NCBI GenBank assembly: GCA_948144175.1
Contig: CANXME010002105.1
Span: 248,001-312,000, forward strand
DNA: 64,000 nt
Reading direction: 5' to 3'
From: Closterium sp. NIES-65
Lineage: Eukaryota; Streptophyta; Zygnematophyceae; Desmidiales; Closteriaceae
Shown: in pieces, positions 11,705 to 42,784 of the stretch
How positions within the stretch are numbered: position 1 is the first letter of the stretch
How the letters are laid out: the number at the start of each line of letters is the position of its first letter
The notes under the pieces: model-generated
Databases searched by the model: none
Told to the model about the DNA's origin: nothing
What the model saw: only the letters and a program-made list of their open reading frames with translations
Made by a program: the position numbers and the translations under genes

Positions 11705-11898
11705 TGTTACGAATAGAAATGTATAAGAACATTACTGTGCACTCCCGACCGCAACTAAGGAAGCATGCAGTATCAAGAACGAATACAAGGACTTGAAGCG
11801 TCAGACGGTTGGCGTGCATCTAGACCGTCGGAGCAGACGGCATCGGCAAGCTGCAGGCAGGAGAATGTTGGCGGGAACAGGTCTGTAGCTGTACGCGC

Positions 11899-13395: not shown

Positions 13396-13626
13396 CGCGC
13401 CGCACGGTTGGGAATGAATTTGAATAAGGGAATGTACCCCTTAGAGTACATGGCTAGCTAGGTGGATTCATATTCCCCTGTACTCTTATTTATATTGCTG
13501 TATTTGCATGTTTTAATTCATCTCAAGCATTTTACATTCACTCTGCTGTTGAGGCACCTAGTCTACCTATCTAAGTGCGAACCTTCCCGAGGAGATCCTG
13601 GCAGCGTTCATCTTCTGATCGCAGCA

Positions 13627-20052: not shown

Positions 20053-20375
20053 TGTGAAAGAACAAGGAATGAATGCACTAGGAAAGAGGTGGGTACAAGT
20101 AGGAAAACCTAAAAGTGTTGTACCCCATATTGTCTACCCCACTACAGCCTACACAGACTATAGCATATAAGTTTGACACACCCCCATAGGCAGAGTCGGG
20201 GAGAACAAGAGGTCACAAGACCAGTAAAGCAAGGTAAAGCAAGCTCAGGGTGGATCACAACGTCACCACACATTCTGAGCACAATTTCAAGGCCACAAGG
20301 CCAGTTCACCTGCAAGATCATATATAAAGGTAAACAAGCAAGTGCAGGTATAGAATAATCACAGTACAAGTAAGG

Positions 20376-21900
20376 TCAAGAAGTGAGCAAGTGAGGCCAA
20401 GTAGGCACAAGACCTAGCATCGTACAGCATCGCTGATGATCACAAGGCGGAAGTGCCTTGGTAAAGATATCAGCAGTGTTGGCCTCAGAGGCCACGTACG
20501 CAAGGCGCAGCTGACCACGCTGCTGCAGCTCACGAGCAAGGAAGTAGCGAAGAGCAATGTGCTTTGTTCTGTGCTCCAGTCTGTGCTCCCGACACAAGGC
20601 CAGCATGGCCTTGTTGTCTACGTGCAGAACCGGAGGAGAACGAGGCGGCTCTCCTAGATCTGTCAGCAAGTAGGTGAGCCAGCGTAGCTCCTGTGCAGCC
20701 ATGGCCCCCGCGTAGATCTCATCCTCACAGCTGGAGCCAAGAACAGAAGACGAGCGGGTAGACCGCCACGAAACAGAGCCGGAGCCAAGGCTGAAGGTGT
20801 AACCCTGTGACGACCGCTGCGTAGCCTGGTCGTCAGCACAAGAAGCGTCTTCGTGACGTCTGAGGACCACTGAACGCCGCCCTCCTAGCACTAGCCCCAT
20901 GCCCGACGAACTGCACAAGTAGCGGAACACCCTCTTTGCTGCAGCCATGTGCTTTGGTCGGTGTCTCCCAGGAGCAACATAGCGTGCCAAGATGCTAAGA
21001 GGGTATGCAAGGTCAGGTCGAGTGCAGGTCATCAGGTACATGAGGCAGCCAACAAGCTCTAGGTACGGGCCACTCGGCTCTACGGACTCATCCGAAGGCA
21101 GAGCTGAGAGCGAGTGGCGAGTAGACAGAGGAGTGGCCTGAGGCGAGGAGTACGTGAAGTCGAAACGCTGAAGGACCTGCTGCACCATGTGTGACTGAGT
21201 CAGGGTAATGGTGCGCTGTGCTCTGTCCCGGGGGATCTGCAAGCCAAGGTAGCTGCGCAGTTCACCCAGGTCTGTGCACGTGTGTCTCTTCTGCAGCTTG
21301 GACTTCACGTGGGCGAGTCCAACAGTGTCAGCAGTGGCAAAGACCAAGTCGTAGACGTACACGAGTATGTAGAACGGCAGCAGAGAGGTGTCGGTGCGCA
21401 GAAACACCGACGGGTCAGCAGTAGAAGGAGCAAACCCAAGAGCCGCAAGTGTAGTCCTCAGTGTGTCGTGCCACTCACGCGGCACCTGGCGGAGACCATA
21501 GACTGGCCGCCGGAGGCTCCACTGGGTACCAGGAGGAAACGACCCAGTGAAGCCAGGTGGGCGGCGAAGCCAGATCTCCTCGTGCAGGCTGCCCTGCAAG
21601 AAAGTTGTGCTGAAGTCAAGAGAGTGAAGCTCGTAGTCGCGCTGAGCGGCTATGTGCAGCAGCACCCGAAGAGTGGTCATCTTCGGGGTGGGAGAGAAGG
21701 TTTGAAAGTAGTCAACTCCCTGCCGCTAACTGAAGCCTTGAGCCACGTAACGCGCCTTGAAGACAGGCGGAGAACCCGGCGGCCGCTTCACCCTGAAAAT
21801 CCACATGCCACTGACGATGTTCGCCCCAGGTGGGGGAACCTCGTCGACGTAGGTGCCCGTGGACTTCCAGGAAGCCATCTCTGCGTCCATGGCTGACTGC
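20376..21900 (-). pseudogene. Copia-2 RT and RNase H region
   Basis: RT motifs include LDFSTTFLQG, EEIWLRRPPGF, YGLRQVPREWHDTL and a following FYILVYV block, with upstream VPPPGANIVSGMWIF. The RNase H part shows YLMTCTRPDLAYPLSILARY, HVDNKAMLALC, RTKHIALRYFLAREL and TADIFTKALP. This is the standard Copia RVT_2 plus RNase H pair at the 3' end of pol. Confidence 0.85.
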
Positions 21901-22559
21901 CACTGTGAGGAGTACGGACCCTCGATCGCCTCAGCGTACGATCGAGGAGTCGGGATGTCTGGTGCATCCGGGTCTCCCTAAGAGGCAATCAGCATGGACA
22001 CGAGATGAGGCAAAGCAGCAGCAAAACACTAGAACTCCTCCTGCCTGTCCTCAAGGACGTCCGTGCTAAGAGCACACTCACCCCCGACGGACGGAGGACA
22101 GACCGACTTAGACTCAGCAACAAGACTAGCAACGTAATCTAGACGACAGTGAGCAGCGAAGTCGACCAACTCAGCAACTAAGGCAGAAGCAACAGTGGAC
22201 TCAAAGGAAGGGTCAATACAACAGTAGCCAGGAGACGCATGACAGTAGGACTGGCAGCACGAAGAGAGTCCGACTTCGGGTCAGCAAGAGCAGGAAGAGA
22301 GGAATCCGGAGGAGACGGCAAAGGGACACGCTGCGGAGCAGTGGAAGGACGCAGTGCCATCTGGTGCGTGCCCGGGACCGCAGGAGGACGCTGACGCGGA
22401 ACACGACGATTAGTGCGAGCAGCACGAACAGGCGACCCAGGACAAGACGCAGGCGCACGACGCTCAGCAAGACCTCCAGTAGGACCAGTATAGGGAGAAG
22501 GAGCAGGTAGTGGGGAGGCGGGCTGTAACTGTAACTACGACTGGTCAGGCTGTGGACAC

Positions 22560-23340
22560 TCTAAGGGAGGAGCAGGACCAGTAGAAGGCGGGAGACCAAG
22601 AACTTGCTCAAGGAGCGGAACGAAGTACGGCCGCGGCCACGCAGCGCCTCTAGAAACAGCACGGACAGCACCAGCACCCCCAGCGGTAGCACCAGCGTCA
22701 GCAGCACCTCCGGCTCCAGCAGCGCCAACTCTAGCACCCTCAGAAGCACCAGCGCCAGCAGCACCGCCAGCTCCAACACCGGCAGCACCTCCAGCTCCAG
22801 CAGCGCCAACTCCAGCACCCTCTGAAGCACCAGCGCCAGCAGCACCTCCAGCGCCAACACCAGCAGGACCGCCAGCTCCAGCACTGCCAGCTGCTCCAGC
22901 ACCAGGAGCACCTCAAGGCCCAGCAGCTCTAGTACCCCCAGCAGCACCAGTAGCACCTCCAGTAGGACCAGCGCCAACAGCTCCAGCAGCACCCCGGAGG
23001 CTGCGACAGTACCGAGAGTACCACTCACGTAGCTGCTGGGAAGAGAGAGCTCCCCTAAGCGCAGCACCCCCAGGCTCAGGACCTCAAGACCCAGCACCCC
23101 CAGAGACAGCACCCCCAGGCTCAGCACGTGCAGTCTCTGCACCCCCAGGCTCAGCACCCATAGTCTTTGCACCCCTAGGCTCAGCACCCGTAGGCTCCGC
23201 ACCCCCAGGCTCAGCACCCGCAGGCTCCGCACCCTCAGGCTCAGCACCCCCAGGTGTAGTACCTCCAGACCCAGCACCACCAGGCTCAGCACGCTCAGTA
23301 CCTCGCGCAGGACCAGAGTCGACAGCTACCTCGACATGCT
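22560..23340 (-). repeat. Copia-2 low-complexity linker between integrase and RT
   Basis: A region of degenerate 12-18-bp repeats (GCACCCCCAGGCTCAGCACC on the plus strand) encodes GAEPGGAEP-like and Gly/Ala-rich stretches. It lies between the integrase C-terminus and RT. Copia-3 has a counterpart at 48,700-49,450. Copia linkers here are usually short and Ser/Pro-rich. Confidence 0.75.
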
Positions 23341-25341
23341 CGACCGGGACTACCTGGGAAACACCTGAGGGAGCAAGAACCTGGGGAGGCAAGGGATCTA
23401 CCAAGGCAGCACCTGGCGTGAGGAAGAGCGGCGGAGGGGGGAGCGGGGCAGTGTGGTAGGGGAAGAGACGGTAGTAAGGCACCGACTCGTCAAAGGTGAT
23501 GTCCTGGGAAGACAGAACACGGTGCGAGGTGGGGTGGTAAAACTGCCAGCTAGGCACGTCAGGGGGGAAGCCAAGGAAGACGCAGGGAATAGCACGGGGG
23601 GACAGCTTGTCCGCAGACAAGTCGCGGACAAAAGCCCGAGATCCCCTGACACGAAACGCAGACGCATCGCCAACCTTCCCCATCCACCTCAGAGTAGGGG
23701 AGGTCTCCGGCAAGGAGACCCGGGGCTGAAGGTTGATCTGATGCGCCGCGTACTGAACCGCGAACGGCCACAGAAAATGGGGAGCAGCCGCATGGATCAT
23801 GGACGTACGAGCGACGTCCATGACCATACCAATGCGGCGCTCAGCAATCCCATTTTTCTGTGTAGAGGCCGGAAGCGTGAACGTCTGGCGGATGCCCTGT
23901 GCACAACAGAAGGCTCGCAGAAGGGCAGAGGAAAACTCACCGCCTCTGTCGGAGTGCAGACGCAGGACACGAAAGTCCGAGCCGAAACTCTCTCTGAGCT
24001 GGAGACGAGCTGCGCGGATCCAGTCGATCAACACCTCAGTGACCTCACCCTTGCTGCGCAAGGGGAAGATTGCGGTGTAACGCGAGTAGTTGTCAACCAC
24101 CAGTAGGAAGTAACGCTCGTGACCCTGCCCACGGACGCGGGCTGGGCCCCACACGTCCTTGTGAAGCGTCTGCAGCGGAGCCTCTGTCGGAGGAAACTCG
24201 GAGAGTGAGGAGTGGCGCGCTGCCGCCCCTCGACGCAAGGAACGCAGGTGGGGCCAGGCCCCGGAGGAAGAGAAGGGAGGGACCGGGGGAGACCCGAGAC
24301 AAGGAAACGAGAGGCCATGCCTCGGAGACGAGGTAGGGAGGGTTGACCAAGGCGGTGGTGCCAGAGGAGAGTCTGGTGAGACAGGAGACGACACGAGCAG
24401 GGGGCAGACTCAGGACCAGACCTGGACGCTGCAGCAAACACCTGACTCGACGCAGCTACCTGAGGAGACTTAGTAGTAAGTGTGTACAGGCTCGACCCCG
24501 GCTGACGGGTAAACGTGGCCAAGTGTCGGCCCGTCCGAGCACACGTACAGTGGGTCACTCGCTGACGCGCAGGAGTGAATTGGTCAACCCCTGCGTCCTG
24601 TAGGTCAGCCCCACTCACCAAGTTCGTAGAGAACGAGGGGAGGTAAAGACCTGGCAGGGAGCTAGAAGGGGCCGCCAGACACGGTAAGACAGTGGAGAAG
24701 TGGGTAAGGACGGGACCCCCAGAGGGGTCTTCCAGGGAGACTGCAACCAGCCGACTAAGCGGCGTGAGTGTGGTGCGGTCTCGAAAGAAGGAGCGAGAAG
24801 CACCCGAGTCAAGGGTGAAGGTGTGTAACACCTGAGACGACGTGGTACCTGAGAGAGCAGACTCGCCAGCACATGGGGCAGTAGACTCACCAGCACCTGG
24901 AGGAGCAGACTCACCAGCACCTGGAGGAGCAGACGCACTAGCACCTAGAGCAGCAGCCTCACCGGCACCTAGAGCAGCAGCCTGAATGCCCGGGTTAGGC
25001 GGAACACACATGTAACAGTCACCCACATCACTAGTAGGTAATGCATACATGGCAGTGAGGATAGCATCATAGTCAAGAGCATAGATATCTACCTTCTGCC
25101 TAAGCTGCTCCACCCAGTCGGGGAGCTCAGCGGTGTCGCCAAACTCCATACGCCAGACGTCGCTCAGACGGGCAAAGCAGCGGGACTCGGCGTGACCAAG
25201 CGTCCCGCAGGGCTGACCAGTCCGAGCACCAGTGCGAATGACGTACGGACAGCGAGCAGTACTCCGCAAACCTCCACGCTGAGCGTACCAGTCACGAAGC
25301 TGCTGGGACGAAAGGACCACGCGTGGACTACGCCTGGCCAC
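23340..25341 (-). pseudogene. Copia-2 gag C-terminus, protease and integrase region
   Basis: The order on the minus strand is a QQLRDWYAQRG motif, a Cys/His cluster (CPYVIRTG ... PCGTLGHAESRC), the protease active-site region LDSGASRSFF, the pre-integrase motif LLWHHRLGQPSLPRL with CVPC, and the integrase core (VVDNYSRYTAIFPLR, LRLHSDRGGEF, NGIAERRI, FLWPFAVQYAAHQIN). These are the DDE integrase signatures of Copia pol. Confidence 0.85.
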
Positions 25342-25399
25342 TACAAGTAGCTCCCGAACTCCTCACGCCAGAACGACTCCCACTAAGGCCACCCCGACA

Positions 25400-26640
25400 A
25401 CCCTAAGTAGCGTACCACTCACGAAGCTGCTGGGGCGTGAGGGACTCACGCGGACGTCGCTGGAGCTGCATCTGGCCACAGCCAGGAGCAGGAGGAGCAG
25501 TGGTGGCTGCAGTAGCAGCAGTAGCAGCAGTAGAAGCAGTAGCAGTAGTCGCAGCGCAGCCACCCCTACAACCCCAACTAGCGTACCACTCACAAAGCTG
25601 TTGGGGGGCGAGGGACTCATGTGGATGGCACTGGAGCTGCATTTGGCCACGCCAGGAGCAGCAGTAGCAGTAGAAAGAGCAGTAGCAGCAAGAGCAGCAG
25701 TAACAGCAGTACGGGCAGGGCAGTGCTCACCAGTGGCGAGAAGGGCAGGCGTATGACTGCGGCAACGGCGAGGCGGCTAGCACTGCAGGGCGAGGGCTCC
25801 GCGGCTGCTGCAGGGGTGGCTGCTCCAGGGGCGGCTGTTGCAGGGGCGGCTGCTCCAGGGGCGGCTGCTGCAGTGGCAGCTGCTCCAGGGGCGACTGCTG
25901 TAGGGGCGGCTGCTCCAGGGGCGGCTGCTGTAGTGGCGGCTGCTCCAGGGGCGGCTGCTGCAGGGGCGGCTGCTGCAGTGGCGGCTTCTCCAGGGGCGGC
26001 TGCTGCAGTGGCGGCTGCTCCCGGGGCGGCTGCTGCAGGGGCGGCTGCTCTAGGGGCGGCTGCTGCAGTGGCGGCTGCTCAAGGGGCGGCTGCTACAGTG
26101 GCGGCTGCTCCAGGGGCGGCTGCTGCAGAGGCGGCTGCTCCAGGGGCGGCTGCTGCAGTGGCGGCTGCTCCAGGGCGCGGGTTAGGGCAGGGCGCCGTGG
26201 CGGGCAGGGGCGACGAGGGAGCTGCAACGAGGCCGCGAGGGAGCCGCGGAGGGGCCGCGACGAGCCACGAGGGGCCGCGAGGGGCCGCGACAGGGCCGCT
26301 AGGGGCCGTGAGAGGGGCCGCGAGGGGCCGGGAGAGGGGCCGCGAGGGGCTGCGAACGGCTGCGGAGGGGCCGCGAGAGGGGCCGCGAGGGGCTGCGAAC
26401 GGCCGCGGAGGGGCCGCGAGGGGCCGCGAGGGGCCGCGAACGGCCGCGGAGGGGCCACGAGAGGGGCCGCGAGGGGCCGCGAACGACCGTTGAGGGGCCG
26501 CGAGGGGCCGTGAGAGGGGCCGCTAGGGGCCGTGAGGGGGGCCGCGAGGGAGCGGCTAAGGGGCGGCGATAGAGGGGCCGTGAGGGGCCGTGAGTGGGGC
26601 CTCGAGGGAGCGGCTAAGGGGCAACTAAGGGCAGGCGGAC
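25400..26640 (-). repeat. Copia-2 leader and gag N-terminal repeats
   Basis: Two copies of a segment encoding ESLxPQQLxEWYA lie at about 25400-25480 and 25570-25650, separated by an Ala/Thr/Leu codon repeat. Beyond this are 15- and 30-bp repeats of GGGGCGGCTGCTGCAGTGGC (25790-26170) and GGGGCCGCGAGGGGC (26220-26620). No stable gag frame is evident in the last part, so much of it is probably untranslated leader. Confidence 0.75.
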
Positions 26641-26652
26641 GCGGGGCACGAC

Positions 26653-28743
26653 TATCAGAATATATCTGTAACTGCCTGTAGCTGTAGTTAGTGTAGTTAT
26701 GATAAACTTTGTTTGGTGGTGCACCTTCTTTGTTTCCTTTGCTATATGTTCTTGCAAACCTATAGTGAAGCCCCTCTATTCTCCTTTCAACTTTCTCGAC
26801 ACTCTCCTCAACCCTAAACCTAAGCTACTAAGAACCTAACTAGCAATGGCTCCTAAGTCAAGCTAGATTCTGAGATGGTATTCAGAGCAGGTATCGTCCT
26901 CCTGCTGCCTTCCTGCTTCCGCTGCCTATCGTCCTGCCGCGCGCCTCGGGCGCGCGGCGGCGCACGGCGATTTTCTGCCCGCCGTGCGCCCTGGGCGCGC
27001 GGCGTCTTCCTGCCCCGCGCGTGGCCTGCCCTCACGCTGCCTGCGCGCCTGCCTCACATCCACGCGCGGGCCTGTTTTGCCTGCCCGTACCCTCAACTTC
27101 GCGGCGCCCTGCGAGGCGCCACTCCTGCTCGTCGCGACGCACCTGCGGGACCCGGGCGTCGCCGCTCCTGCTCGTCGCGACGCCCCTGCAGGACCCGCAT
27201 GGCGTCGCCTTGCTCGTCGTGACGCCACTGCGGGACCCGCGGGGCGTCGCCACTGCTCGTCGCGGCGCCCCCTGGACGCCGCTCCTGCTCGTCGCGGCGC
27301 CCCTGGGGCGTCGTCCCTACTCGTAGCGGCACCCCTTGGGCGCCGTTCCTACTCGTCGCGGCGCCCTCCCCCCTGCCCACGGCGCCGACCCTACAGCTGT
27401 ATGCGCCGCCGCTCTTGGACTCGGTACGGCTGCCTGCCTGTGCTGCCCGTTGCTGCCTGTTGCTGCCCGTGCCTGTGCTGCTTGTTGCCGCCCGTTGCTG
27501 CCCATGCCTGTGTTGCCTGTTGCTGCCCGTGCCTGTGCTGCCTGTTGCCGCCCGTTGCTGCCTGTGCCTGTGCTGCCCGTTGCTGCCTGTTGCTGCCTGT
27601 GCCTGTGCTGCCCGTTGCCGCCCGTTGCTGCCCGTGCCTGTGCTGCCCGTTGCCGCCTGTTGCTGCCCGAGCCTGTGCTGCCTGTTGCTGCCTGTTGCTG
27701 CCTGTGCCTGTGCTGCCTGTTGCCGCCCGTTGCTGCCCGTGCCTGTGCTGCCTGTTGCTGCACGTGCCTGTGCTGCCTGTTGCCGCCCGTTGCTGCCTGT
27801 GCCTGTGCTGCCCGTTGCTGCCTATTGCTGCCTGTGCCTGTGCTGCCCGTTGCCGCCCGTTGCTGCCCGTGCCTGTGCTGCCCGTTGCCGCCTGTTGCTG
27901 CCCGAGCCTGTGCTGCCCGTTGCTGCCTGTGCCTGTGCTGCCCGTTGCCGCCTGTTGCTGCCCGTGCGTGTGCTGCCTGTTGCCGCCTGTTGCTGCCCGT
28001 GCCTGTGCTGCCCGTTGCCGCCCGTTGCTGCCCGTGCCTGTGCTGCCTGTTGCCGCCCGTTGCTGCCCGTGCCTGTGCTGCCTGTTGCTGCCCGTGGGTG
28101 TGCTGCCTGTTGCCGCCCGTTGCTGCCTGTGCCTGTGCTGCCCGTTGCTGCCTGTTGCTGCCCGTGCCTGTGCTGCCCGTCGCCGCCCGTTGCTGCCCGT
28201 GCCTGTGCTGCCCGTTGCCGCCCGTTGCTGCCCGTGCCTGTGCTGCCCGTCGTCGCCCGTTGCTGCCCGTGCCTATGCTGCCCCTGCTCTTCCCCCTCCC
28301 CCTTCTTTGTCTCCCTGCTGCGCGTGCAGCCGTGGAACGGAGGCTATGGGGGTGGCGGGTATGGGGGTGATGGGTGTGTGTGATCCCCTTCCCCTCCTCC
28401 TCCTTTCTCTCCCACTACTGCAGCTGTCGCTTGGGGGGGGGGGTGGTGGGTGTGAGGGTGTGGGGGAGCTGGGGGAGAGGTGCTAGGGTTGTCAAGGAGT
28501 GTGGAAGGGGGAGTTGGAGGACTGAGGAAGGTTCCAGGAAGCAGCCGCCTTGGAGCCAGCAGCTTCACCTGCCAGCAGCTTCTCCTCATATAGTCCCTCC
28601 TCCTCACTTTGCCCTCTCCATCTGCTGCGCTTGGTGTACCCCTTCAGGGGGTGTCTCTGCATTAGCTTCTGCTGCAGGTAGTTATGGGGGAGTGTTAGAA
28701 TATATCTGTAATTGCCTGTAGCTGTAGTTAGTGTAGTTATTAT
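26653..28743 (+). mobile_element. NA-4: non-autonomous LTR element in the Copia-2 leader
   Basis: Same family as NA-3. The 5' LTR is about 26653-26875 (TATCAGAATATAT...), followed by PBS TGGTATTCAGAGCAGG. The second LTR begins at 28693 after ATGGGGGAG and is only partly present. The interior carries the GCGCGC palindromic module, GTCGCGACGAG repeats and the same 35-bp VNTR, here only about 850 bp, then the AGCTGCCGC/GGAGGAGG module. Incomplete copy. Confidence 0.85.
27430..28285. repeat. 35-bp VNTR inside NA-4 (about 0.85 kb)
   Basis: This is the reverse complement of the NA-3 repeat unit (CCTGTGCTGCCCGTTGCCGC then CCGTTGCTGCCCGTG), about half the array length of NA-3. It is open in several frames and does not look like a gene. 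Confidence 0.92.
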
Positions 28744-28987
28744 ATCGTTTCAGTTTTCTCAGCGACTCGGGCAGGGGTGAAGCGCGCTCCGGGCAGGAAA
28801 AAAATTCGAATTTTCGGTGGGCCCTAGGAAATGTTCCCACTAGGGAACCTGCTCTATACCATGTGAAAGAACAAGGAATTAATGCACTAGGAAAGAGGTG
28901 GGTACAAGTAGGAAAACCTAAAAGTGTTGTACTCCATATTGTCTACCCCACTACAGCCTACACAGACTATAGCATATAAGTTTGACA

Positions 28988-30060
28988 GATCACGGCGGAA
29001 ATTTTCGTCAATATCGTGCTTCAAGGGCTCGGCCCAGAGTGGCGGCCCTGCAAGGCGCTTCTCCGACAGCAGGGGGTCATCTCGGAGGCCGCCCTTTGCG
29101 CCACCCTTCTCGTCGAACAACGGGATATGGATCAGCAGATACCAGCGCCACGACGAGAACGAGAATGGCTCGCCTTCTACGCCGACAACAATGAAGAGCG
29201 ACGGTCGTGGCGCCTTTACTGCAAAATGTGCAGAAGCTTCGGGCATTTGGCGGATCGATGCAAGTCCCGATCTCGCCCTCGCTAGACCAATCCGAGCAAC
29301 TGGTCCGGCCGACAAGACGCACGAGGCGACGTGCGTCCAGCCCAGGGGTATCAACCCCCACCCGTGCGCAACCTGAACCCAGTGGTTCAGCATCAGTAGC
29401 AGCAGCGTCATGAGCAACATGGCCATGACGGGCGAGTCGCGTCGTCGCCGCGTGCGCTCACCTTCACCTGAGCCAGCACCGCATCCCATTGGCGCGTTCT
29501 CCAACAACAATTCGTTCAGTCCGCGCCACGACTTCACCGACAACGACAACCAAGACTGGAATCTTCCATTCCCGCTACTTGAAAGTCCCCCGCACGTACC
29601 TGACATGCGGGTGGCGCCACTTGATTGGCTCTCGCGCGAGCAATTTTTGAAGTTCGACACTCCGCACATCGTCACGCCGCGACTGGCGCTGCTCGCACGT
29701 GATGACAACAAGCGCTACAACACCTGGTACCTGGACAGCTGCTGGAGGCAGCATATGGTGGGCTCCGAGCGTTACATATCCAACGCCGTCGCCACCCCCA
29801 CAGTCACCTATGTCATCGTGGCTAACAACGGACGCCTGCGCGCAAGTGCGCAATGCATCGTCGTGCTCAAGGCGCGCAGAAGCCGCATGCACATCACGCT
29901 CAACGATGTGCTGATCGTCCAGAGCCTGCGCTTCAACCTGCTTTCGGCCGCACAGCTCATGGAATGCGGTGTTGACCTCAACACGGATCGCGCGACGCAT
30001 GACATTTTGCTACACTACGAATCCAGGACTTTCTCCCGCAGGCAGATCGGATGAGCACAC
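28988..30060 (+). pseudogene. Copia-1 copy 1, gag C-terminus, zinc knuckle and protease region
   Basis: A gag tail is followed by a CCHC zinc knuckle (CKMCRSFGHLADRC, about 29220-29264), then Arg/Ser-rich linker sequence (MTGESRRRRVRSPSP) and the protease region. The latter has the WYLDSCWRQHMVGS block and its typical C-terminal LIVQSLRFNLLSAAQLMECG. The knuckle binds RNA and the protease matures the polyprotein. Confidence 0.8.
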
Positions 30061-31260
30061 TCCGAAAATGGAGTGTACGTCCTGGACTTTGACATTCCTG
30101 ACTGCAGCAGCGATTCACACGAGCTAATCGATCTCGTGCCTCTGCGTTTCGAGCATATCCACCGCAGGGACTGGAAGCATCCTGACGGCAGACCGTGGGT
30201 GCCGCATCATCCCCACCCACGCGAAACAGCGCTACACGATCCAGACCCAGACGGCATCTGCAGAGACTGCCACACGCCAACAGCGTCAACTAGTGCAATT
30301 GCCGGCCGCGCGACTCGCCGCCATCGACGAAGCCGAGCGCCACGCGCCGCCAGAAGAAGGAATGTCACAACTAGAGCTTGAAGTCACAACGCGCGGCGTG
30401 TTCGGCATGCCAGAATACCCTCTCATCGGACCCCCCTCCCAACATCTGCAAGGCATGCTGCGTGGCACTGGCGTCGGCACCTTTGATGCGCATGGCGTGC
30501 CGCGACCCTACACCGATGAGAAAATTTTGGAAATCTACTCTCATCGGCGCATCCCGCCGAAGAAACTTACCGTAGAACAGGAAGAAGAACCGCCGCGCCA
30601 TGAAGCTGTAGAGCTTTGCCAACAAAGTCTTGCTGAAGCACGCGGGACGTTCGCCTGCGGCGCGTGGGGAGCCGAAGCGGAAGAAAGTGCCTCCAAAGAA
30701 GGGGGGTGGGGAAGCGCTGGCGGATGGGGAACGAGCGATACCGGCGGATGGGGAACGAGCGATACCGGCGGTTGGGGAAACAGCGGCGGAACCTGGGCCA
30801 ACGCAAGCGGTGGATGGGGCGAAGCAACTAGCGCAGACAACAGCGGCTGGGAGACTTCCCACGAAGAACAAAAGGGGGGAGACGAAGAAGCAGATGCTCC
30901 TGAGGCAACACCTGCAGTTGTTCCCCTTGGTTGTCCACCACGCCATGTTCCACTTGCATTACCCCCTCCTGACAACCCACCGCGTCGCGATCCTTGGGAC
31001 ACCATCAACTTGGGCAACGAGTCGTCAACCCCGCGTTGCACCGTCTACGGACCCGCTCCTCAACCACGTGAACCCACCTTTGTCCCTGGAACCATCCCTG
31101 GGACTAATATTCCCCTCTCCGAAATCCGTGACAGAGAGTTTTTGGCGCTAATAATGACCACCGCCAACGACGAAGAAGAAGCAGCAGAAGAGGCAGCAGC
31201 AGAACCTGCCCCTGTATCTGACGAAGATCCCGAAGAAGCTCGCGCGCGCTACATGCGCAC
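30060..31260 (+). pseudogene. Copia-1 copy 1, accessory region with WG repeats between protease and integrase
   Basis: After YVLDFDIPDC, where Copia elements normally need only some tens of residues before the pre-integrase motif, there are about 390 extra residues. They include a Pro/His-rich part, MPEYPLIGPPSQHLQGM, an acidic Glu-rich helix, then WG repeats at about 30700-30855 (GGWGTSDTGGWGTSDTGGWG, GGTWANASGGWG, SGWETS). An acidic tail (EEEAAEEAAAEPAPVSDEDP) leads into NAFWHQRLGHPS. The Ser/Thr/Gly-spaced Trp-Gly pairs resemble Argonaute-binding AGO hooks of plant NRPE1 and SPT5L. That function is an inference. Confidence 0.7.
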
Positions 31261-32030
31261 CTCCGGCTTTCACGCTGACAATGCATTCTGGCACCAGCGC
31301 CTCGGACATCCTTCACGCGCGACGCTGAAAAATTGCATCGACGCAGGCGTCTTCGCTCCTGGAGCGCTCCTGCACCCAGATGGCACCGAAGCGAGAGGCG
31401 CGACACATCCGCGCAACTGCACCATCTGCCCCGAAGCCGCGCTAAGCCACCAGCCATTCCCGCTGCTTGAACCAAGAACGAACCGCTACCCCAAGCTGCA
31501 CAAGGTGTACAACGACTTCCTGAACGTGGGGCACTGCGGAGTTGACGACGAAATGTACACGCTTACCTTCATCGACGCTGGAACGCGCCACGTGCGGGTC
31601 GCAAACGTGGAGTCACGCAATAGAGCCTACGAGGTATTCCGCCAATGGCTAGCGCACGCGCAGCGGCAGTCCGGGGAGAAGCTGAAGATCTGTCAATCTG
31701 ACGGCGCTGCAGAATTCAGGAGTAAGCAGATGCAAGATTACCTGTCTCAAAAGGGGATTGAGCACTACATCTCTCTCCCCTACGCACATCAGCAGCAGGG
31801 CGTAGCCGAGCGGACGAACCGCACGCTCATGACAAAGGTGCGGGCGTTGATGAAGCAGTCGAAGGTGCCACCGACCTATTGGACCTCCGCGATGCACCAC
31901 GCTGTGCGGGTGCACAACATGGAGTCAACCACCGCCATCATTGGCAACTTGTCCCCGCATGTGAAATGGACCGGGACTAAGGGGGACACGTCCATGCTCC
32001 GCGTATAGGGGTGTATGGTGCAATACCGCC
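31260..32030 (+). pseudogene. Copia-1 copy 1, integrase region
   Basis: Pre-integrase motif FWHQRLGHPSRATLK with a Cys pair (NCTICPEA), then the DDE core: LTFIDAGTRHVRVANV, KICQSDGAAEFRSK, QQGVAERTNRTLM, and WTSAMHHAVRVHNM with the WTGTKGDTSMLRV tail. This is a clear Copia rve domain. Confidence 0.88.
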
Positions 32031-32579: not shown

Positions 32580-34100
32580 GGCGTGAGGCGATGGACGCGG
32601 AGATCAAGGCCCTCGAATCCAGAGATACCTGGGTGCTAGTCGACCGCGCAGCAATCAAGGGTGCAAGAGTTCTCTCGGGGAAGTGGGTCTTTGTGAAGAC
32701 CGCAGCGGACGGAACGATCGAGCGCTTTAAGGCGCGCTGGGTGGTGCGTGGCTATGACCAAAGGCATGGGATCGACTTCAACTAGACGTTTGCTCTGGTC
32801 AGTCGCCACACCTCCGTCCGAATCCTGCTCACCATCGGAGCCGCAAGGCACCCGCCGCTCCGCCAGATCGACGTTAAGAACGCGTTCCTGTATGCGTTAG
32901 AAGACGCTGTAATCTACGTGAGCAGCCGCATGCATACGGCGAAGGGGACTCGCGCGTGTGTCAGCTGCGCAAGTCCCTTTACGGGATCAAGCAGGCACCA
33001 AGACTGTGGCAGCAGTATCTGCACAACATTCAGCTTGAAATCGGGTTCAAGCAGATGCCGCATGATCCTGGGATGTACCGCCGTGATTTCCGCAGCGAAT
33101 ACATCCTCCTCACAGTCTACGTCGACGACTTGCTTTACAGAGAATCAAGCAAAGAACTACTGGAGCAGTTCGAGAAAAACCTGGCGGGGCGCGTCGACAT
33201 CACTTACAACTACGAGGTGAAGCAGTTCTTAGGCCTCAACATCTCCTACGCGCCTGAGGCCATTCACCTCTCAGCAGCCAAGTACGCAGAGGAGTTAGGA
33301 AAGCGATTCAACATCTCACCCGCTCCCCACTCCCTACCGAACTCCAAGACCGAGCCACAAACCTGACAACAAAGCCCTATCCCTTGCTGGAGTTCAGACT
33401 TACAAGCAGCAGCTGGGATGCCTGCTCTTTTCCTCTGTCACATGCAGGCCTGACCTCTCCTACATCGCAAGTCAGCTGGCCTAGTACTCACGCAAACCAA
33501 CGGCTGAGAATCTTCTGGACCTGCAGCGCGCCCTACAGTTCTTCGTTTCAACGCCCAAGATTGGGCTGTGCTACTCAACTGCACCAACCCCATCCTTCAA
33601 CCTCATTGGCTACGTGGACGCCGATCACGCAGCAGATCCCGACAATCGACGGTCCAGGACTGGCTTCTTGTTCCGACTCAAACCAACTGGACCAATCTCC
33701 TGGAACTCGCACAAGCAGGAGTTGGTTGCCCTGTCATCACCCGAAGCGGAATTCATCGAAGCAACCGCAGCAGTTCGCTAACGCCTCTACTTGCAGGAAC
33801 TCCTACAGGAGGCGAAAATTCCAGCTTCGCCCACCTTTCGTCTTCACTGCGACAACCAGAGCGCGACTTGCATCACGAACAAACCTGGTTTCGTCAACCG
33901 CACCAAGCACATTGCGCTGCAGTATTTCTTCGTGAAGAACGAAATGGACAAGGGCAAGGTTGACTTGACCTACTGCTCGACTATTAACATGGCATCAGAC
34001 TTTCTCACAAAGCGACTGCCACGCCAGCAGTATCAGCACTGCTCCGAACTCAACGGACTGGTCAAGCAGGTCAAGTCGAGTTGCGGCCAAGAGTGAAGGG
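32580..34100 (+). pseudogene. Copia-1 copy 1, RT and RNase H region
   Basis: RT starts with AMDAEIKALESRDTWVL and VFVKTAADGTIERFKARWV, then YGIKQAPRLWQQYLH, the ILLTVYVDDLLYR active-site block and VKQFLGLNISY. RNase H has HCDNQSATCITN, RTKHIALQYFFVK and ASDFLTKRLPRQQY, followed by a purine tract and the LTR. Broken, several breaks. Confidence 0.87.
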
Positions 34101-34623
34101 GGGTGTTACGAATAGCAATGGCTGAACATCACAAGTGCACTCCTCACCGCAGCTAAGGAAACACCCAGTAACAAGAACGAATGCGAGGAGTCAGAATTGA
34201 CTCGAAGCGTCAGACGGTTAGGGCGGATCTGGACCGTCGGAGGAGACGGCATCAGGCAGCTGCAGTCAGGAGGAATTAGGCGGGAACAGTTTCGTAATTG
34301 TACGTGCAGCACGGTTGGGAATGAACTTGAATAAGGGAATGTACCCCTTAGAGTACATGGCTAGCTAGGTCGATTCATATTCCCCTGTACTCTTATTCCC
34401 CATGTTTTAATTCATCTTAAGCATTTCACATTCACTTTGCTATTGAGGTCAAAGGCCCACCTAGTCTACCTATCTGCGTGCGAAACTTCCCGAGGAGATC
34501 CTGGCAGCGTTCATCTTCTGATCGCAGCATGGTATGAGAGCTGCTCGGGAATCCTTTGCACCGCCACTCCCGAAAATTACAACATTCGGAAAGTGGTGTC
34601 CGGCACACGCTCGCGTGTGAGAA

Positions 34624-35594
34624 TGGCTGGAGGATCTGGTGGTCAGACTAATCTGACGGCTGAAGCGCAAACCAACCCGGCTGCGACAAGCGAGGAAACG
34701 ACGACTATCAGGACCGAAGTCCTCGCACAACTTCTTCAGCGACTCACTAGCTTGGAGCAAGGGCTCCAAACATTGCGAAACGACGACGCGGGAACATCAT
34801 CCCAACCTTCTCAACCGGCCCCAAATGGCCAGAACGCCGCCCCGCACACTTTCTCCCTTGACACAAATGGTTCAACCCTCAAGACTCCCCGTCCCAGTGA
34901 AGAAGCAATTCTCTCTGCGTAATCAAGGTTTCTCAGCATATAAAAAATAAAGACAAGTGTGTGTTTTGACGGCAGAGACTTCCATACATGGAGCTTCGAG
35001 CTGGAGCTCCTGCTGCAGACGCTCAGATTTGTCACTACTTCGACGAGAGTTACGCGTACGCCCGCTGAAGATAGCGACGACGCCAGGACAAGGTACTACA
35101 ACGAGTCCTTGATCTTGCCCTCGCCAGACCAATCCGAGCGATTGGTCCGGCCGACAAGACGCACGAGGCAACGTGCGTCCAGCCCAGGGGTATCAACCTC
35201 CACCCGTGCGCAACCTGAACCCAGTGGTTCAGCATCAGCAGCAGCAGCCATCATCGTCTACCCCAGTACGCAACGTCGTGAGCAACATGGCCATGACGGG
35301 CGAGTCGCGTCGTCGCCGCGTGCGCTCACCTTCACCTGAGCCAGCACCGCATCCCATTGGCGCGTTCTCCAACAACAATTCGTTCAGTCCGCGCCACGAC
35401 TTCACCGACGACGACAACCAAGACTGGAATCTTCCAGTCCCGCTACTTGAAAGTCCTCCGCACGTACCTGACATGCGGGTGGCGCCACTTGATTGGCTCT
35501 CGCACGAGCAATTTTTGAAGTTCGACACTCCGCACATCGTCACGCCACGATTGGCGCTGCTCGCACGTGACGACAACAAGCACTACAACAATTG
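34624..35594 (+). pseudogene. Copia-1 copy 2, gag and linker region
   Basis: MAGGSGGQTNL start and coiled segment as in copy 1. It then jumps to the Arg/Ser-rich linker (MTGESRRRRVRSPSP) and the DWNLPVPLLESPPHVPDM block, so part of the gag seen in copy 1 is not present. It is interrupted by Gypsy-1. Confidence 0.75.
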
Positions 35595-35949
35595 TGTGAG
35601 GATCTAGGATTGAGCTCAGAAAAGAGAGTTTGATTTGAATGATCACCTGGGTACAACACGAGGCTATATATAGGCTCGACACAAGGCCCAGTAACCAGGT
35701 GTTACGGGAAGCGTCTCGAACAGATCCTTCCCGAATTCGGTAGAAGGCAATTCGGTGGCAACCGAAAAGCCCAGAATTCGGTGCACGCAACCTAGCTCGG
35801 TGCTATAACTATAATAAAATATAGGAAAGCACCTAGCCTAGGAAGTCAAGCAATTCATGCATGCATAAAATTATCCTATGCTAGAAATAGCATGATAAAG
35901 TAAAGGCAAGCAAGCATAGGTGGCACAAGTCGTCGTTCTCTCACACGTC

Positions 35950-36908
35950 CCCCCCTCAAAGCTGGGTGGAGTGAGATACACCCTGCTTGACAAGATAGTC
36001 CTTGAGAGCACGGCGTTGCCCATATCAACTTCTGCAACCCAACTGTCCTCAGTGGGGTCGTATCCCTTCCAGCGTATCATGAACTCGAGGGTCTTGCCAC
36101 CGCGGTGTCGATGAGTGAGAACGCGCTCCACTTCGTACTCGGGTTCATCCTGTACCAGAACTGGTGGTGGTGGCAGTAGCTGCCGTCCCTGGAACTGTTG
36201 GTTGGGGTCCTTGTAGGGCTTTAGTAGCTGGACATGGAAAGCGTTGTGAAACTTCCATGTATTTGGTAAGTGCAAGCGGAATGTAACTAGTGTCACCTGT
36301 GCCTCAACGAGAAAAGGACCACAGAAGCGAGGCCGGAGTTTGAATGGAAGGTGAGACAGGTTCAAGTTGTACGTGTCAAGAAGCACCTGATCTCCGACTG
36401 CTACTAAGTGATCACGTCGCTGGCGATCTGCATACTGCTTCTGGGAGGTCCGCATCGTGGTGAGTCGTCGCCGAGTCTTCTCCCATAGCTGCTGCATGGT
36501 GGTGACGAAGTCATGTGCGGCTTGGACGTGTGCCGGTGTGGTTGGTTGCTGTGGTGTGAGTGGTTCTCGTCCGTAGCACAGGAAGAAAGGAGTTGTCCCT
36601 GTGGCCACATGTGACGCGTTGTTGTAAGCGAACTCTAGGGTCGGTAACTGTGTGTTCCAGTGGCTGATATCGTCTTTGCAGGCTGTGCGCATTAGCTGTT
36701 CAACCACTTGATTGAGTCGCTCTGTCTGACCGTCAGTCTGGGGGTGGTATGCTGAGGACATCGCAAGTTTGGTCCCCAATAATCCCATGAGCTCCTTCTA
36801 GAACTTACTTGTGAATTTGGGTTCTCTGTCTGAGATAAGTGTAGCGGGGATGCCGTGGATGGTGATGATGCGATCGAAGAAGAGGCGGGCAGTTGCTTCA
36901 GCTGTAGC
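35950..36908 (-). pseudogene. Gypsy-1 integrase C-terminal part and chromodomain
   Basis: Integrase core end (AMSSAYHPQTDGQTERLNQVVEQ, split here only by its own sequence), GTTPFFLCYGREPLTP, then the HLPFKLRPRFCGPF module. A chromodomain follows (EYEVERVLTHR, MIRWKGYDPTEDSWV). The chromodomain places it among chromoviruses, which target chromatin marks for integration. Confidence 0.88.
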
Positions 36909-37439
36909 TGTGAGAGTACGTCGGCTTATGCTTGTTATTCATGCTTGCTAATATATCCTTACGCTATTCCTAGCTTAGGATTATTTTCTGCATGCATGAA
37001 TTGCTTGATTTCCTAGGTTCGTTGCTATACTATAGTTATTATAGTTATAGGCACCGAACTAGGTTACGTGCACCGAACTCAAGCTATTCGGTCGCCACCG
37101 AATTGCTTTCTACCGAGTTCGGGAAGGTTCTGTTCGGGACGCTTCGCGACCCTCAGAACATTCGCGTAACACCTGGGTTACCTGCCTTGTGTCGAGCCTA
37201 TATATAGCCTCATGTTGTACCCAGGTGATCATTCAATTCAAACTCTCTTTTCTGAGCTCGATCCTAGATCCTCACACTTGGTAATCAGAGCCCGTTTACA
37301 CGCGAAGTTCTTTCGACCGCTAAAACCCAGTCTTAAAAAAAAAAACCGCGGGGGCGACGCAGTTAAACATCGATTTCGGGTACGTAAAACCGGTTCCGTG
37401 TTTTTCCGCTCCTCCTCGATTTGGTTTTTCGGACGCGTA

Positions 37440-38405
37440 ATGTCAGGCATGGAAGGCCAGGGCGACAACTACGCGACCACGAGCGACGTCGCGAGCCTCC
37501 GCACCAACATGGAGCAGACGCAGGCGACGCTTCGTCGACTCGAGGCTTTTTTAACAAACCACCCGGCGCTTGCCACGACAGCAGCAGCGACTGCAACCGC
37601 TACAGCACCGACAATTCCAGCAGTAGTGGCGACACCGATATTTCACGGCCCAATGGCACCATCAACGCCGAACCTCGAAGCAGCACGACCGAGGCTCCCG
37701 GAAGCGTTCGATCCAAGCGCAAAGGGATCCGACGTCCGGCGTTTTGTGGCAATCCTCGAGATCTACTTCGAGGCCATTGGCTGTTCGACCCCGACATACG
37801 ACGCAACACGAATCCGGCTCGCAGCAACACTGTTACGCGGACCAGCACTCGAGTGGATCTACAACACTGACGTGGCCCGCGGGGAGAAAACGTGGCAGCA
37901 GTTTCGGGCAGAATTTATCGGGCGTTTCGAACCGGTTAATACTACCTATTTGGCGCGGCAACAAATTCATCGGCACAAGCAGTGTGGTAGTGTAGCGCAG
38001 TACACGCAGCAGATGGAGCTCTTGTTCACCCGCATCCCCGACCTGATCGAAGGCGAAAAAATCACGGCATACACAGAAGGGTTAAAATTGGGGGTTCAGC
38101 GGCAGGTGATCGCGTCAAATCACGAAAGCTACAAGGACATCGTGTGTGCAGCCGAGCGTTACGACGCGCTGACCCGAAGTCAACCCGAAACACGACGTTT
38201 CACGCCGAACCGTACATTCGGCACGGAGCGATCGGCACCCCCCACGTTCGCCGAACCGATGGATATCGACAAATTCGACGCGAAGCGGCAGCCGACCAAA
38301 TGCGAATTTTGCGGCGCAGCAGGGCATCAGATTTTGTCGTGCTACAAGTTGAAGAAAGAACGTGCGATCATGCAGGACGGTAACAGTGGAGCACCCCCAA
38401 AGTAA
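37440..38405 (+). CDS. Gypsy-2 gag
   Basis: About 321 residues starting MSGMEGQGDNY, with an N-terminal coiled segment (LRTNMEQTQATLRRLEAF) and an Ala/Thr-rich linker. The retrotransposon gag domain follows (RPRLPEAFDPSAKGSDVRRF, LLRGPALEWIYN, WQQFRAEFIGRFEPV, QYTQQMELLFTRIPDL). It ends with a CCHC zinc knuckle (CEFCGAAGHQILSC). This is the structural nucleocapsid-forming protein. Confidence 0.85.
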   Translation: MSGMEGQGDNYATTSDVASLRTNMEQTQATLRRLEAFLTNHPALATTAAATATATAPTIPAVVATPIFHGPMAPSTPNLEAARPRLPEAFDPSAKGSDVRRFVAILEIYFEAIGCSTPTYDATRIRLAATLLRGPALEWIYNTDVARGEKTWQQFRAEFIGRFEPVNTTYLARQQIHRHKQCGSVAQYTQQMELLFTRIPDLIEGEKITAYTEGLKLGVQRQVIASNHESYKDIVCAAERYDALTRSQPETRRFTPNRTFGTERSAPPTFAEPMDIDKFDAKRQPTKCEFCGAAGHQILSCYKLKKERAIMQDGNSGAPPK

Positions 38406-38482
38406 AAAAACGGGAATCGCCAGTAGCAGGGGATCGAACTGGCGATCGCGTAAAGATCCGAAAAGCGAAAAAGGGCGACGAC

Positions 38483-41400
38483 GTGGCGACTTCGGAGCGG
38501 GCGAAAAAAGGAGAAAGTGATGGCGCGAATATAAAACGTCACGACCTGCCGGCATCAGGGGAAATCGCTGAGGCAACTAGTGGCTCCGCGAAAAAAGACT
38601 CTGCACCGACCGGGAAACTCCAGCCGGACCCCCACGAAAGTAAGAAATCGTTAAAAGTATCCTATAAAGATACTCTAACGAAAAATATCGCTTCTCGTGG
38701 TTTTCAAGCCTTTGAAAAATTCAGGGAAGAACTAGAGGCCAAGAAAAAGCCTTTAGAAGTCATTCAGGTACCTGCAAATATGGGCAAAGTATTACGGAGC
38801 GTAGAGAAGGGTCGTGCGTTCCGTGGTGTTAATATTCTCTCCCCGCAGCAGAGTGTTAAGGCTCCCCGTTGCCCACAGGTGAAGCCTACACAGCCGCAAA
38901 GGCTTAGAGGAAAATTCCAGGCTCAAGAGAAGATATACAAGCCTCGGAAAAATCCTCCTACCCCCCAGGTGAAGTTGGAAAGTGCTGAGTCGGGTATAGG
39001 AAACAGGGAAGGTATCCATTTTACTGTACCCTATGATCCTATTAATGAGACCCTCTTTGGCTACTCACCGCAGCAGAAACCACTACTCCTCGAGGTGTTA
39101 TGCAATGGGCGACGCCTCCAGGCACTGGTGGACAGCGGTGCATCTCACTCGGTGTGTGACCGCGGAGCATTGGAGAAAATTGGAGAGAAGGCGGAGGAGA
39201 CCCAGTTTTCAGCAACCATGGTGGACGGTACGAAACTTCCCATCCACGGCGAAGCATCACTGCAGCTGCATATCGGTGCGTTAAGGTGGAAACCGAAGCT
39301 GCCAGTCACCAACATCAAAGGGTTAGATTTTATCTTGGGGCAAGATTTCCTGAAGCGGTTCAACCCCGAGATCGATTGGGTCAACAGCAAGGTGTGCATC
39401 TACAACAACGGGAAACGGATAGCACTGCGAAGCTGGACGGATACAGGGGACGTACCTGAAACGACACTGGCACGGTTCGAACAGACGGTGAACGTGAGTA
39501 ACACGGGTTACCTAGCACTGGTTATGGCAGCAGCAGAGGAGGAGAAGCCGAGTTCGGAGCTACCTGCAGCAGTGAAGGAGGTCTTGGAGCAGTACAAGGA
39601 TATAATGCCCGACGACCTACCTGCAGGCGTACCCCCTTCACGCACCCACAAACACAAGATCGTGGAGGAACCAGGTGCAAAACCCGTCTCACGTGCACCA
39701 TACCGACTAAGTCCGACCGAACTGACAGATATGAAGAAACAGATCGAGTATCTACTGGACAGACAACTGATCCGACCCTCCACCTCTCCCTACGGCGCAC
39801 CAGTTCTCTTCACACCAAAACCAGACGGCAGTTTACGGATGTGCATCGACTACCGCGCACTGAACAAATAGACGGTAAAAAACAAATACCCCATACCACG
39901 CATCGACGACTTACTGGACCAACTGCGTGGTGCAACAGTCTTCTCCAAGCTAGACCTACGGTCGGGTTATTGGCAGATCAAGATGGCAGACAACTCAGTC
40001 CACAAGATGGCGTTTCGTACTCGATACGGCTCCTACGAATACTTGGTGATGCCGTTCGGACTCTGTAACGCACCAGCAACGTTTCAGGCGGAGATGAATC
40101 ACATCTTACGGCCCCTGCTGGACGAGTGCGTGGTGGTGTACCTGGACGATATTCTCATCTACTCCAAGAACATGAAGGAGCACGTGGAGCATCTGCGGAA
40201 GGTGTTCGAGATCCTGCGGAAGAACAAGTTCTACGTGAAGCTGTCCAAGAGCGACTTCGCCCTGAAGAAGGTGCAGTTTCTTGGGCACATGGTGAGTGCC
40301 GAGGGCGTACACGTGGACCCGCGGAAGATCGAAGCCGTGAAAGAGTGGAAAGTTCCGGAAAACGTGAAAGAATTGGAGCAGTTCCTAGGCTTCGCCAACT
40401 ACTACAACAGGTTCGTGCCACAGTACGCTAAGATTGCAGCGCCACTGACCGACCTACTGAAAAAGGATACACCCTTCAAATGGGATACTCCTCATCAGCA
40501 AGCCATGGAGCAGCTACAGACCGCACTGACCACAGCCCCGGTACTCATCCTACCAGACCCTGAGAAGGACTACGTAGTTGAAGCTGACGCTAGTGACCAG
40601 GCAGTCGGAGCAGTACTGATGCAGGATCACGGGAACAGGTTACAGCCTATCGCCTACCTCAGTAAGAAACTACACGGAGCAGAACTGAACTACCCCATTC
40701 ACGACAAGGAAGCCTTAGCCATAGTCGTAGCCTTCAAAGCGTGGAGGTGCTATCTATAAGGAGCCAAGACTACAGTCTATACTGACCACTGCAGCCTCAA
40801 ATACTTGAAGTCTCAGCCAACACTCTCACGACGACAGGTGCGATGGATGGACTTCTTGGAGACCCACTTCCACTACGACATCATCTACAAACCCGGGCTA
40901 CACAACAAAGCAGACGCGTTGAGCTGCCCAGGACATGTAGCAGGCATCCTACTCGACGGGATGAACCCTCTGCTCAAGGGTCTATTCCAACATGGGTACT
41001 CCGTGGACGGCGAGATAGCAACGGCAGAGAAACAGAAGCTGTTACAGTGGGAGAAAGACTTAGCTCTAAGGAAGGGTTCAGGAAAGATTTGGGTACTGAA
41101 TTACGCCCCGCTACGGCAGATCCTATTGGAGGAGTTTCACGACGTACCTTACGCGGGACATTTCGGGAGCAACAAGACGTTAGCAAGGATAGAGAAGTAT
41201 TACTACTGGCCCGGGATAGCAGCAGACGTGCAGCAGTTTGTCACCTCTTGCGACACGTGCTAGCGGATGAACAGTAGCAAGCAGAAAAAAGCAGGGTTAC
41301 TTCAGCCTCTACCCGTACCGGAGCAGCCATGGCAAGTCGTTAGCCTCGACTTCATCACGGGACTTCCTTCGACCTCACGAGGGCATGATGCTATACTCGT

Positions 41401-42406
41401 GGTGATCGACAAGCTCTCTAAAATGGGTCACTTCATCCCGACCAACGCCATCGCTACTGCTGAAGCAACTGCTCGCCTCTTATTCGACCGCATCATCACC
41501 ATCCACGGCATCCCCGCTACACCTATCTCAGACAGAGACCCCAAATTCACTAGTAAGTTCTGGAAGGAGCTCATGGGATTATTGGGGACTAAACTGGCGA
41601 TGTCCTCAGCATACCACCCACTGACTGACGGACAGACAGAGCGACTCAATCAAGTGGTTGAACAGTTACTGCGCACAGCTTGCAAAGACGACGTCAGCCA
41701 CTGGGACACACAGTTATCGACCCAAGAGTTTGCTTACAACAACGCGTCTCATGCGGCCACAGGGAAAACTCCTTTTTTCCTGTGTTACGGACGGGAACCA
41801 CTTACACCACAGCAGCCAACCACACCGGCATACGTCCAGGCCGCACATGACTTTGTCACCACCATGCAGCAGCTATGGGAGAAGACTCAGCGACGTCTCA
41901 CCACGATGCAAAACTCCCAGCAGTATGCCGATCGCCAGCGACGAGATCACTCAGTAGCAGTCGAAGATCAGGTGCTTCTTGACACGCGCAACTTGAACTT
42001 GTCTCACCTTCCATCTAAACTCCGGCCTTGCTTCTGTGGTCCTTTTCTCGTTGAGACACAGGTGACACCACTTACATTCCGCTTGCGCTTACCAGATACA
42101 TGGAAGCTTCACAACGCTTTCCATGTCCAGCTACCAAAGCCCTACAAGGACCCGAACCAACAGTTCCAGGGACGGCAGCTTCCGCCACCTCCTCCTGTTC
42201 TCATCCAGAATGAACCTGAATATGAAGTGGAGCGCGTTCTTTCTCATCGACGCCGCGGCGGCAAGACCCTCGAGTTCCTGATACGCTGGAAGGGTTATGA
42301 CCCCACTGAGGACAGTTGGGTTGTAGAAGCTGATATGGGCAACGCACGCTGTGCTCTCAAGGATTATCTTGTCAAGCAGGGTGTATCTCACGCCACCCAG
42401 CCTTGA
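38483..42406 (+). pseudogene. Gypsy-2 pol (protease, RT, RNase H, integrase, chromodomain)
   Basis: Protease: LVDSGASHSVCD and [76 protein letters not shown] and [12 protein letters not shown]. RNase [18 protein letters not shown] and the TDH region. Integrase: the zinc-binding [11 protein letters not shown] ... CDTC block, [20 protein letters not shown] and SAYHPLTDGQTERLNQ. Chromodomain: EYEVERVLSHR and IRWKGYDPTEDSWV near 42220-42355. Order and motifs are those of Ty3/Gypsy chromoviruses. About three breaks. Confidence 0.9.
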
Positions 42407-42784
42407 GGGGGGGACGTGTGAGAGTACGTTGGCTTATGCTTGTTATTCATGCTTGCTATTATTTCCTTACGCTATTCCTAGCTTAGGATTATTTTCTGCA
42501 TGCATGAATTGCTTGATTTCCTAGGTTCGTTGCTGTACTATAGTTATTATAGTTATAGGCACCGAACCAGGTTACGTGCACCGAACTCAAGCTATTCGGT
42601 CGCCACCGAATTGCTTTCTACCGAGTTCGGGAAGGTTCTGTTCGGGACGCTTCGCGACCCTCAGAACATTCGCGTAACACCTGGGTTACTTGCCTTGTGT
42701 CGAGCTTATATATAGCCTCATGTTGTACCCCGGAGATCATTTAATTCAAACTCTATTTTCTGAGCTCGATCCTAGATCCTCACA

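Follow-up and report, generated by a model that had tools for sequence, protein, structure and literature searches.

A tryptophan-glycine array under purifying selection in the polyprotein of a Closterium Copia retrotransposon, a candidate Argonaute hook

Plant viruses disarm Argonaute (AGO) by means of WG/GW motifs, and whether transposons do so from their own polyprotein is the question raised by the locus described here. For the AGO hooks of plants, the sections of PMC10991848 consulted give as a criterion at least three Trp motifs that reach a score of 6 under the plant Wsearch matrix, state that two or three Trp are enough for binding one AGO, and describe SPT6L with an AGO hook as a synapomorphy of Streptophyta. 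Among viral suppressors, the P1 protein of sweet potato mild mottle virus (SPMMV) requires three WG/GW motifs for AGO1 binding and inhibition, according to the part of PMC2904775 consulted. We analyzed a 64,000-nucleotide stretch of the genome of the streptophyte Closterium sp. NIES-65 (contig CANXME010002105.1, positions 248,001 to 312,000 of the forward strand; hereafter the window), in which two copies of a Copia retrotransposon carry a WG/GW array in the polyprotein. That this array is a module under selection, shared by many copies of a high-copy Copia element, is near certain, and by analogy with the systems above an AGO-hook-like function would be its best reading. Among the papers listed by searches of the open literature, with subscription papers mostly outside it, none reported a WG/GW array in a Copia polyprotein or transposable elements that disarm Argonaute from within their own polyprotein.

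A preliminary description of this DNA had placed WG/GW repeats in a Copia polyprotein between protease and integrase, and they are indeed present there on the + strand. The array of copy 1 (30659-30850, +) has 66 residues with 8 Trp and lies within a stop-to-stop frame at 30128-32008. Seven of the Trp stand in a GW or WG context, and the spacings from one Trp to the next are 14, 6, 8, 8, 7, 7, and 11. The composition is G 30%, S 14%, A 14%, W 12%, T 11%, and E 9%, and the residues F, Y, L, I, V, M, P, R, Q, C, and H are absent. When the residues of the open reading frame (ORF) were shuffled 20,000 times, the observed Trp density was reached in 8 shuffles and the number of GW/WG motifs in 49. 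When all six frames of the window were scanned for clusters of GW/WG Trp, 12 with at least three were listed, and the only stop-free clusters with at least four were the arrays of copy 1 and copy 2. The array of copy 2 (55107-55322, +) contains 9 Trp and one 24-bp unit more. Tandem Repeats Finder reports this 24-bp unit in 2.5 copies at 30719-30779 (+) and in 3.5 copies at 55167-55251. All 20 of the other aligned copies fall short of copy 1 by at least 24 bases at this point, and no aligned copy outside the window pair has the extra units. The GGWGTSDT-type repeats of the preliminary description are present; their repetition is due in part to an expansion in the two window copies. In the other copies, the usual order of the array is AWG, GGWGSA, GGWGTSDT, GGWGxS, GGTWANAS/R, GGWGAATSADNS, and GWGT.

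The distribution of the array was followed across the genome (874 Mb, 2400 contigs). A 156-base query from the WG segment gave 47 rows at 40 places (40 scored of 463 candidates), with an integrase query 40 of 1306 candidate places were scored, and a second array query (281 bases, array included) gave 40 scored of 618 candidates. The array was recognizable in all 20 further loci fetched with the WG segment. This count was dismissed as evidence by itself because the copies had been found by the WG segment itself, and the integrase-selected list was used instead. There, 25 of 40 places hold the array, 3 hold part of it, 5 have no array at that position, and 7 were not read; the check on related Copia elements that the preliminary description had proposed thus came out in favor of a shared feature on both lists. 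At 13 of these places the 156-base list has a WG match upstream, and at 9 more the 281-base list does, the latter matched by eye; of the remaining 18 places 11 were read, and 3 of these had the array, in two cases shortened and in one interrupted by a stop. The partial cases consist of only the 3' part of the array joined to other sequence. The array-less places may reflect insertions, or else a lineage that lacks the array. Unrelated repeats occupy the array position in L055 and L065 and in L062, L064, and L066, the last three being identical in the frame printed.

Because the 40 scored places (of 618 candidates) are 96-100% identical to the array-containing 281-base query, one subfamily looks young. 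Partial long terminal repeat (LTR) pairs are 97.0% identical in L013 (168 sites), 96.1% in L015 (127 sites), and 94.8% in L024 (173 sites), and the pair in L027 is 100% identical over only 38 sites. Six of the 20 fetched copies are near-duplicates, which leaves about 14 that are independent. In a tree the copies fall into three clades and the two window copies are sisters; the array is kept in three clades differing by up to ∼20%.

A minisatellite of the same genome, L046 (C59, 435-2188), can be read as a GW/WG array in each of the three + frames. Arrays of this kind can thus arise without coding, and a frame test is needed for them. The ratio of nonsynonymous to synonymous substitution rates (dN/dS) was pooled over L009-L028, without the two window copies and skipping gap or stop codons and pairs of fewer than 20 codons. 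With these 20 copies aligned on copy 1, dN/dS is 0.29 in the protease, 0.27 before the array, 0.30 in the array, 0.33 after the array, 0.17 in the integrase, and 0.23 in the reverse transcriptase (RT). Wrong-frame values range from 0.75 to 2.13 over all regions, those of the array being 0.97 and 1.28. Between two clades the array dN/dS is 0.25 (codon bootstrap 0.15-0.43, with 0 of 2000 replicates at or above 1), and against the third clade it is 0.23; these between-clade values, like the site divergences given below, come from 14 copies, the near-identical L015, L019, L020, L021, L025, and L026 having been left out. The array is coding and is maintained by purifying selection.

Within the array, constraint is strongest on the tryptophans. 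Tallied over 21 copies, 145 of the 168 possible Trp codons were readable, the rest being gaps, and these comprise 138 TGG, 4 TAG, 2 TGC, and 1 TCG. Trp codons diverge by 0.026 per site against 0.098 at positions 1-2 of codons other than Trp and Gly, which is the AGO-hook trait of conserved Trp and variable linkers; the corresponding values are 0.068 for positions 1-2 of Gly codons, 0.178 for four-fold sites, and 0.118 for nearby wrong-frame TGG. The change to CGG, found in 40 of 286 wrong-frame TGG triplets nearby, is unseen at the Trp codons. The isolated low-complexity expansion that the preliminary description had named as an alternative is at odds with this pattern, in which the Trp are kept and the linkers vary more. 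The Trp codons of the integrase diverge by 0.008, so the array is less constrained than the integrase domain. Taken together, the shared copies, the low dN/dS, and the slow divergence of the Trp codons show that the array is a maintained coding module.

The array is embedded in an accessory region between protease and integrase. From the protease motif (D-S-x) to the integrase motif WHxRLGHP, copy 1 measures 518 residues with a frameshift in between, whereas the same distance in two copies of the window's other Copia family is 149 and 155 residues. This leaves ∼365 extra residues, and the figure of 390 in the preliminary description was about right. The part N-terminal to the array (29971-30640, +) includes the frame change of copy 1, and the part C-terminal to it (30869-31270, +) is Pro-rich and then acidic. 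The N-terminal part also contains a C-x2-C-H motif (ICRDCHTP, 30256-30279), of which the first Cys and the His are present in 20 of 20 copies and the second Cys in 19 of 20; judged from its sequence, it is a possible metal-binding site. A search for relatives in viral contigs led nowhere.

In the host, 22 PIWI-domain matches were found on six contigs, and for two exons of one PIWI gene the closest PDB chain is Arabidopsis AGO10; by these matches the host Argonautes are plant-like. SH2_2 matches mark an SPT6 homologue on three contigs, and its C-terminal tail, read on one of them, is glycine-rich and contains a WG array with 9 Trp, in agreement with what PMC10991848 describes for SPT6L; given that synapomorphy, this tail and the AGO10 match point to a streptophyte host. 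In the 16 kb around one of the two places of an SPT5-type gene, only two 4-Trp GW/WG clusters were seen, in frames of 45 and 77 residues. A position matrix was built on the 9 Trp contexts of the host SPT6 tail and applied to the array and to 587 control Trp, 86 of them with GW/WG. With this matrix, in which composition drives much of the score because its 9 contexts come from a glycine-rich tail, 7 of 8 array Trp lie above the 95th percentile of the 587 controls, 3 of 8 lie above the control maximum, and 6 of 8 lie above the 95th percentile of the 86 GW/WG controls. The host contexts themselves, scored by leave-one-out, range from 0.85 to 12.4.

By analogy, the array would be disordered and would bind host AGO proteins at their tryptophan pockets. 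Either the polyprotein or a piece processed from it would then occupy or sequester AGO, and this sequestration could weaken silencing of the element, like the WG/GW suppressors of plant viruses. Disorder, AGO binding, and suppression are what we infer for the array from this analogy. The whole reading, a selected Copia module that acts as an Argonaute hook and whose likeliest use is defense against silencing, is put forward tentatively, as somewhat short of an even chance.

Several observations weigh against this reading, beside the dependence of the matrix on composition. One array Trp scores -6.2 with the host matrix, and a BLASTP comparison of the array with the host SPT6 tail found no homology (E 82), so that any resemblance between the two would be convergence in composition. 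A PDB search with the accessory region and array gave no meaningful match, the best E values being 1.3 and 2.8, the latter to a prion octarepeat peptide. Among the 20 WG-selected copies, 4 have a stop in the array, 1 has a frameshift, and 3 have lost one Trp, and 5 of the 40 integrase-selected places hold unrelated sequence where the array was expected. The array dN/dS is higher within clades (0.50 and 0.38), and its fall with distance is as single-copy decay atop past selection would give. Minisatellites of the same genome, as L046 illustrates, also give WG arrays. The AGO-hook interpretation of the preliminary description is thus partly supported: the host context fits, since PIWI-domain genes and an SPT6 homologue with a WG array are present. 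A Pfam scan of the accessory region and array at E up to 10 returned no match.

The main rival, possible if rather doubtful, is that the array is a generic disordered Trp-Gly region of the sticker-and-spacer kind that serves capsid assembly, RNA chaperoning, or condensates and is unrelated to Argonaute. The low-complexity aromatic-glycine composition and the missing BLASTP homology to the host hook agree with it. So does the very low model confidence over the array, as in disordered regions, although the AlphaFold2 values (mean predicted local distance difference test score 45, and 34-39 in 10-residue blocks of the array) come from an alignment of only 2 sequences, too shallow for telling disorder from lack of data, and the model of the accessory region was of too low a quality for fold comparison. 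However, Trp is the sole aromatic residue in the copy 1 array and is singled out by selection, and its contexts resemble the host's own WG array.

It is unlikely that the array acts instead as a recruiter which, joined to the integrase, delivers AGO, or chromatin complexes that contain it, to the particle or the pre-integration complex and so steers integration or packaging. The array does lie upstream of the integrase in the same frame, the family occurs in a tandem and heavily nested context in the window, and the part of PMC7575100 consulted reports potyviral HCPro recruiting AGO1 for pro-viral functions; nothing, however, indicates that the array stays on the integrase after processing. 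Less probable still is capture of the accessory region and array from a host gene by transduction, with the activity of that gene retained. The ∼365 extra residues with their conserved C-x2-C-H motif would suit such an origin, but the region has no Pfam or PDB relative and the SPT6 tail, the one host candidate compared, is non-homologous by BLASTP. A functionless, low-complexity, in-frame minisatellite is disfavored as the least credible explanation, for although the window pair show the 24-bp unit expanded (2.5 and 3.5 copies), this expansion is absent in the 20 other aligned copies, the between-clade dN/dS of 0.25 stays below 1 in every bootstrap replicate, the Trp codons vary least in the array, and the array persists across all three divergent clades.

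Around the array, the Pfam matches follow the Copia order of Pol_BBD, a weak GAG-pre-integrase, rve, and RVT_2. In copy 1, all on the + strand, these are the Pol_BBD/protease-type domain (29725-29970), a GAG-pre-integrase match under the Pfam cut-off with the start of an HHCC-type motif inside (31274-31342), the integrase core (rve, 31532-31783), and a piece of RT (RVT_2, 32947-33318). The C-terminal gag region of copy 1 (29263-29722, +), assigned by position and reading with no Pfam match, has its counterpart at 35104-35590. These two segments had been considered as LTRs and were dismissed as gag sequence by reading. The LTR lies at 34104-34529 (+, TG...CA by eye) and serves, as we read it, copy 1 as 3' LTR and copy 2 as 5' LTR. 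Directly after it, from 34530, stands TGGTATGAGAGC, which we take to be primer-binding-site-like and Met-tRNA-like. The 5' LTR of copy 1 (first part 11705-11880, +, 79% to 34104-34529; second part 13395-13626, +) is split by a nested element at 11899-13395 with a 5-bp target-site duplication.

Attributed to copy 2 are a leader and gag region (34530-35590, +), severed from pol by a nested Ty3 chromovirus at ∼35594-54169, a Pol_BBD/protease-type domain (54173-54418, +, Pfam), and an integrase core (rve, 56002-56253, +, Pfam); judging from the sequence, the gag part and the pol part from 54170 probably belong to one copy. From the matches, copies 1 and 2 (11697-56315) are read as a tandem with a single shared LTR. 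Seven LTR-type insertions were read in and around them: those in copy 1 are at 11899-13395, 14188-15716, 15717-19732, and 20053-28987, and in copy 2 the Ty3 chromovirus encloses one more chromovirus (36909-42784) as well as a further Copia (46141-52835). Five of the seven insertions are flanked by direct repeats of 4-5 bases, and a clean direct repeat was not found at 14188-15716 and 35594-54169.

Both window copies are decayed, and copy 1 has in-frame stops after 32005. Their protease and array parts are in different frames, with an overlap that diverges at 6 of 251 sites. The frameshift between protease and array is shared by both window copies; because it is absent in all 19 other copies aligned there and the window pair are sisters, we regard it as a shared defect, and a programmed frameshift or an overlapping second ORF was dismissed.

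Of the features that define Ty1/Copia, the integrase ahead of an RVT_2-type RT and the LTRs are present, from Pfam and LTR matches, as is the putative Met-tRNA-like primer site. The canonical D-[S/T]-G protease motif is replaced by D-S-C in 14 of the 15 copies that cover it, with a Tyr in the other, and the D itself is kept in 13 of 15. The Pol_BBD profile still matches, and we do not treat the deviation as decisive for Copia membership. In most copies, the protease-type motif at 29731-29757 reads L-D-S-C-C-G-Q-H-M, in a domain under purifying selection. Another Copia family starts at 62123-63684 (+) and in L049, with gag, a CCHC-type stretch, and the protease motif D-S-G-C. Elsewhere in the window, an open frame at 2290-3339 (-) encodes a legume-lectin domain (E 5.1e-30).

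Set against known systems, the element is like ordinary Ty1/Copia in its order of LTR, gag, protease-type domain, integrase, and RVT_2. It is unlike them in the D-S-C motif of its protease, and unlike the window's other Copia family in the extra residues between protease and integrase. It resembles plant LTR-retrotransposons with additional ORFs in carrying extra coding sequence in many copies; in the part of PMC7264820 consulted, such ORFs lie mostly between pol and the 3' LTR, whereas here the extra region is inside pol. Like the plant AGO-hook proteins NRPE1, SPT5L/KTF1, SPT6L, NERD, and SDE3 as described in the sections of PMC10991848 consulted, the array has repeated, mostly GW/WG Trp that are conserved while the repeats are variable; their hook region is reported there to be disordered, as the array may be. 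Unlike these host proteins with tens of Trp, the array lies in a retrotransposon pol, has ∼5-9 Trp, and is a putative hook. Like SPMMV P1 (PMC2904775, in the part consulted), it is part of a protein that has three or more WG/GW motifs and comes from a parasite of an AGO-bearing host, whereas P1 is a viral serine protease with three motifs whose binding and suppression are demonstrated by mutagenesis. It is conceivable, if not quite probable, that this Copia family has its own Argonaute hook in pol, convergent with the SPT6L-type hook of the host and serving as a weapon against, or a handle on, RNA silencing. A maintained Trp array, a multi-copy element, and a host with plant-type AGO make this question open to direct test.
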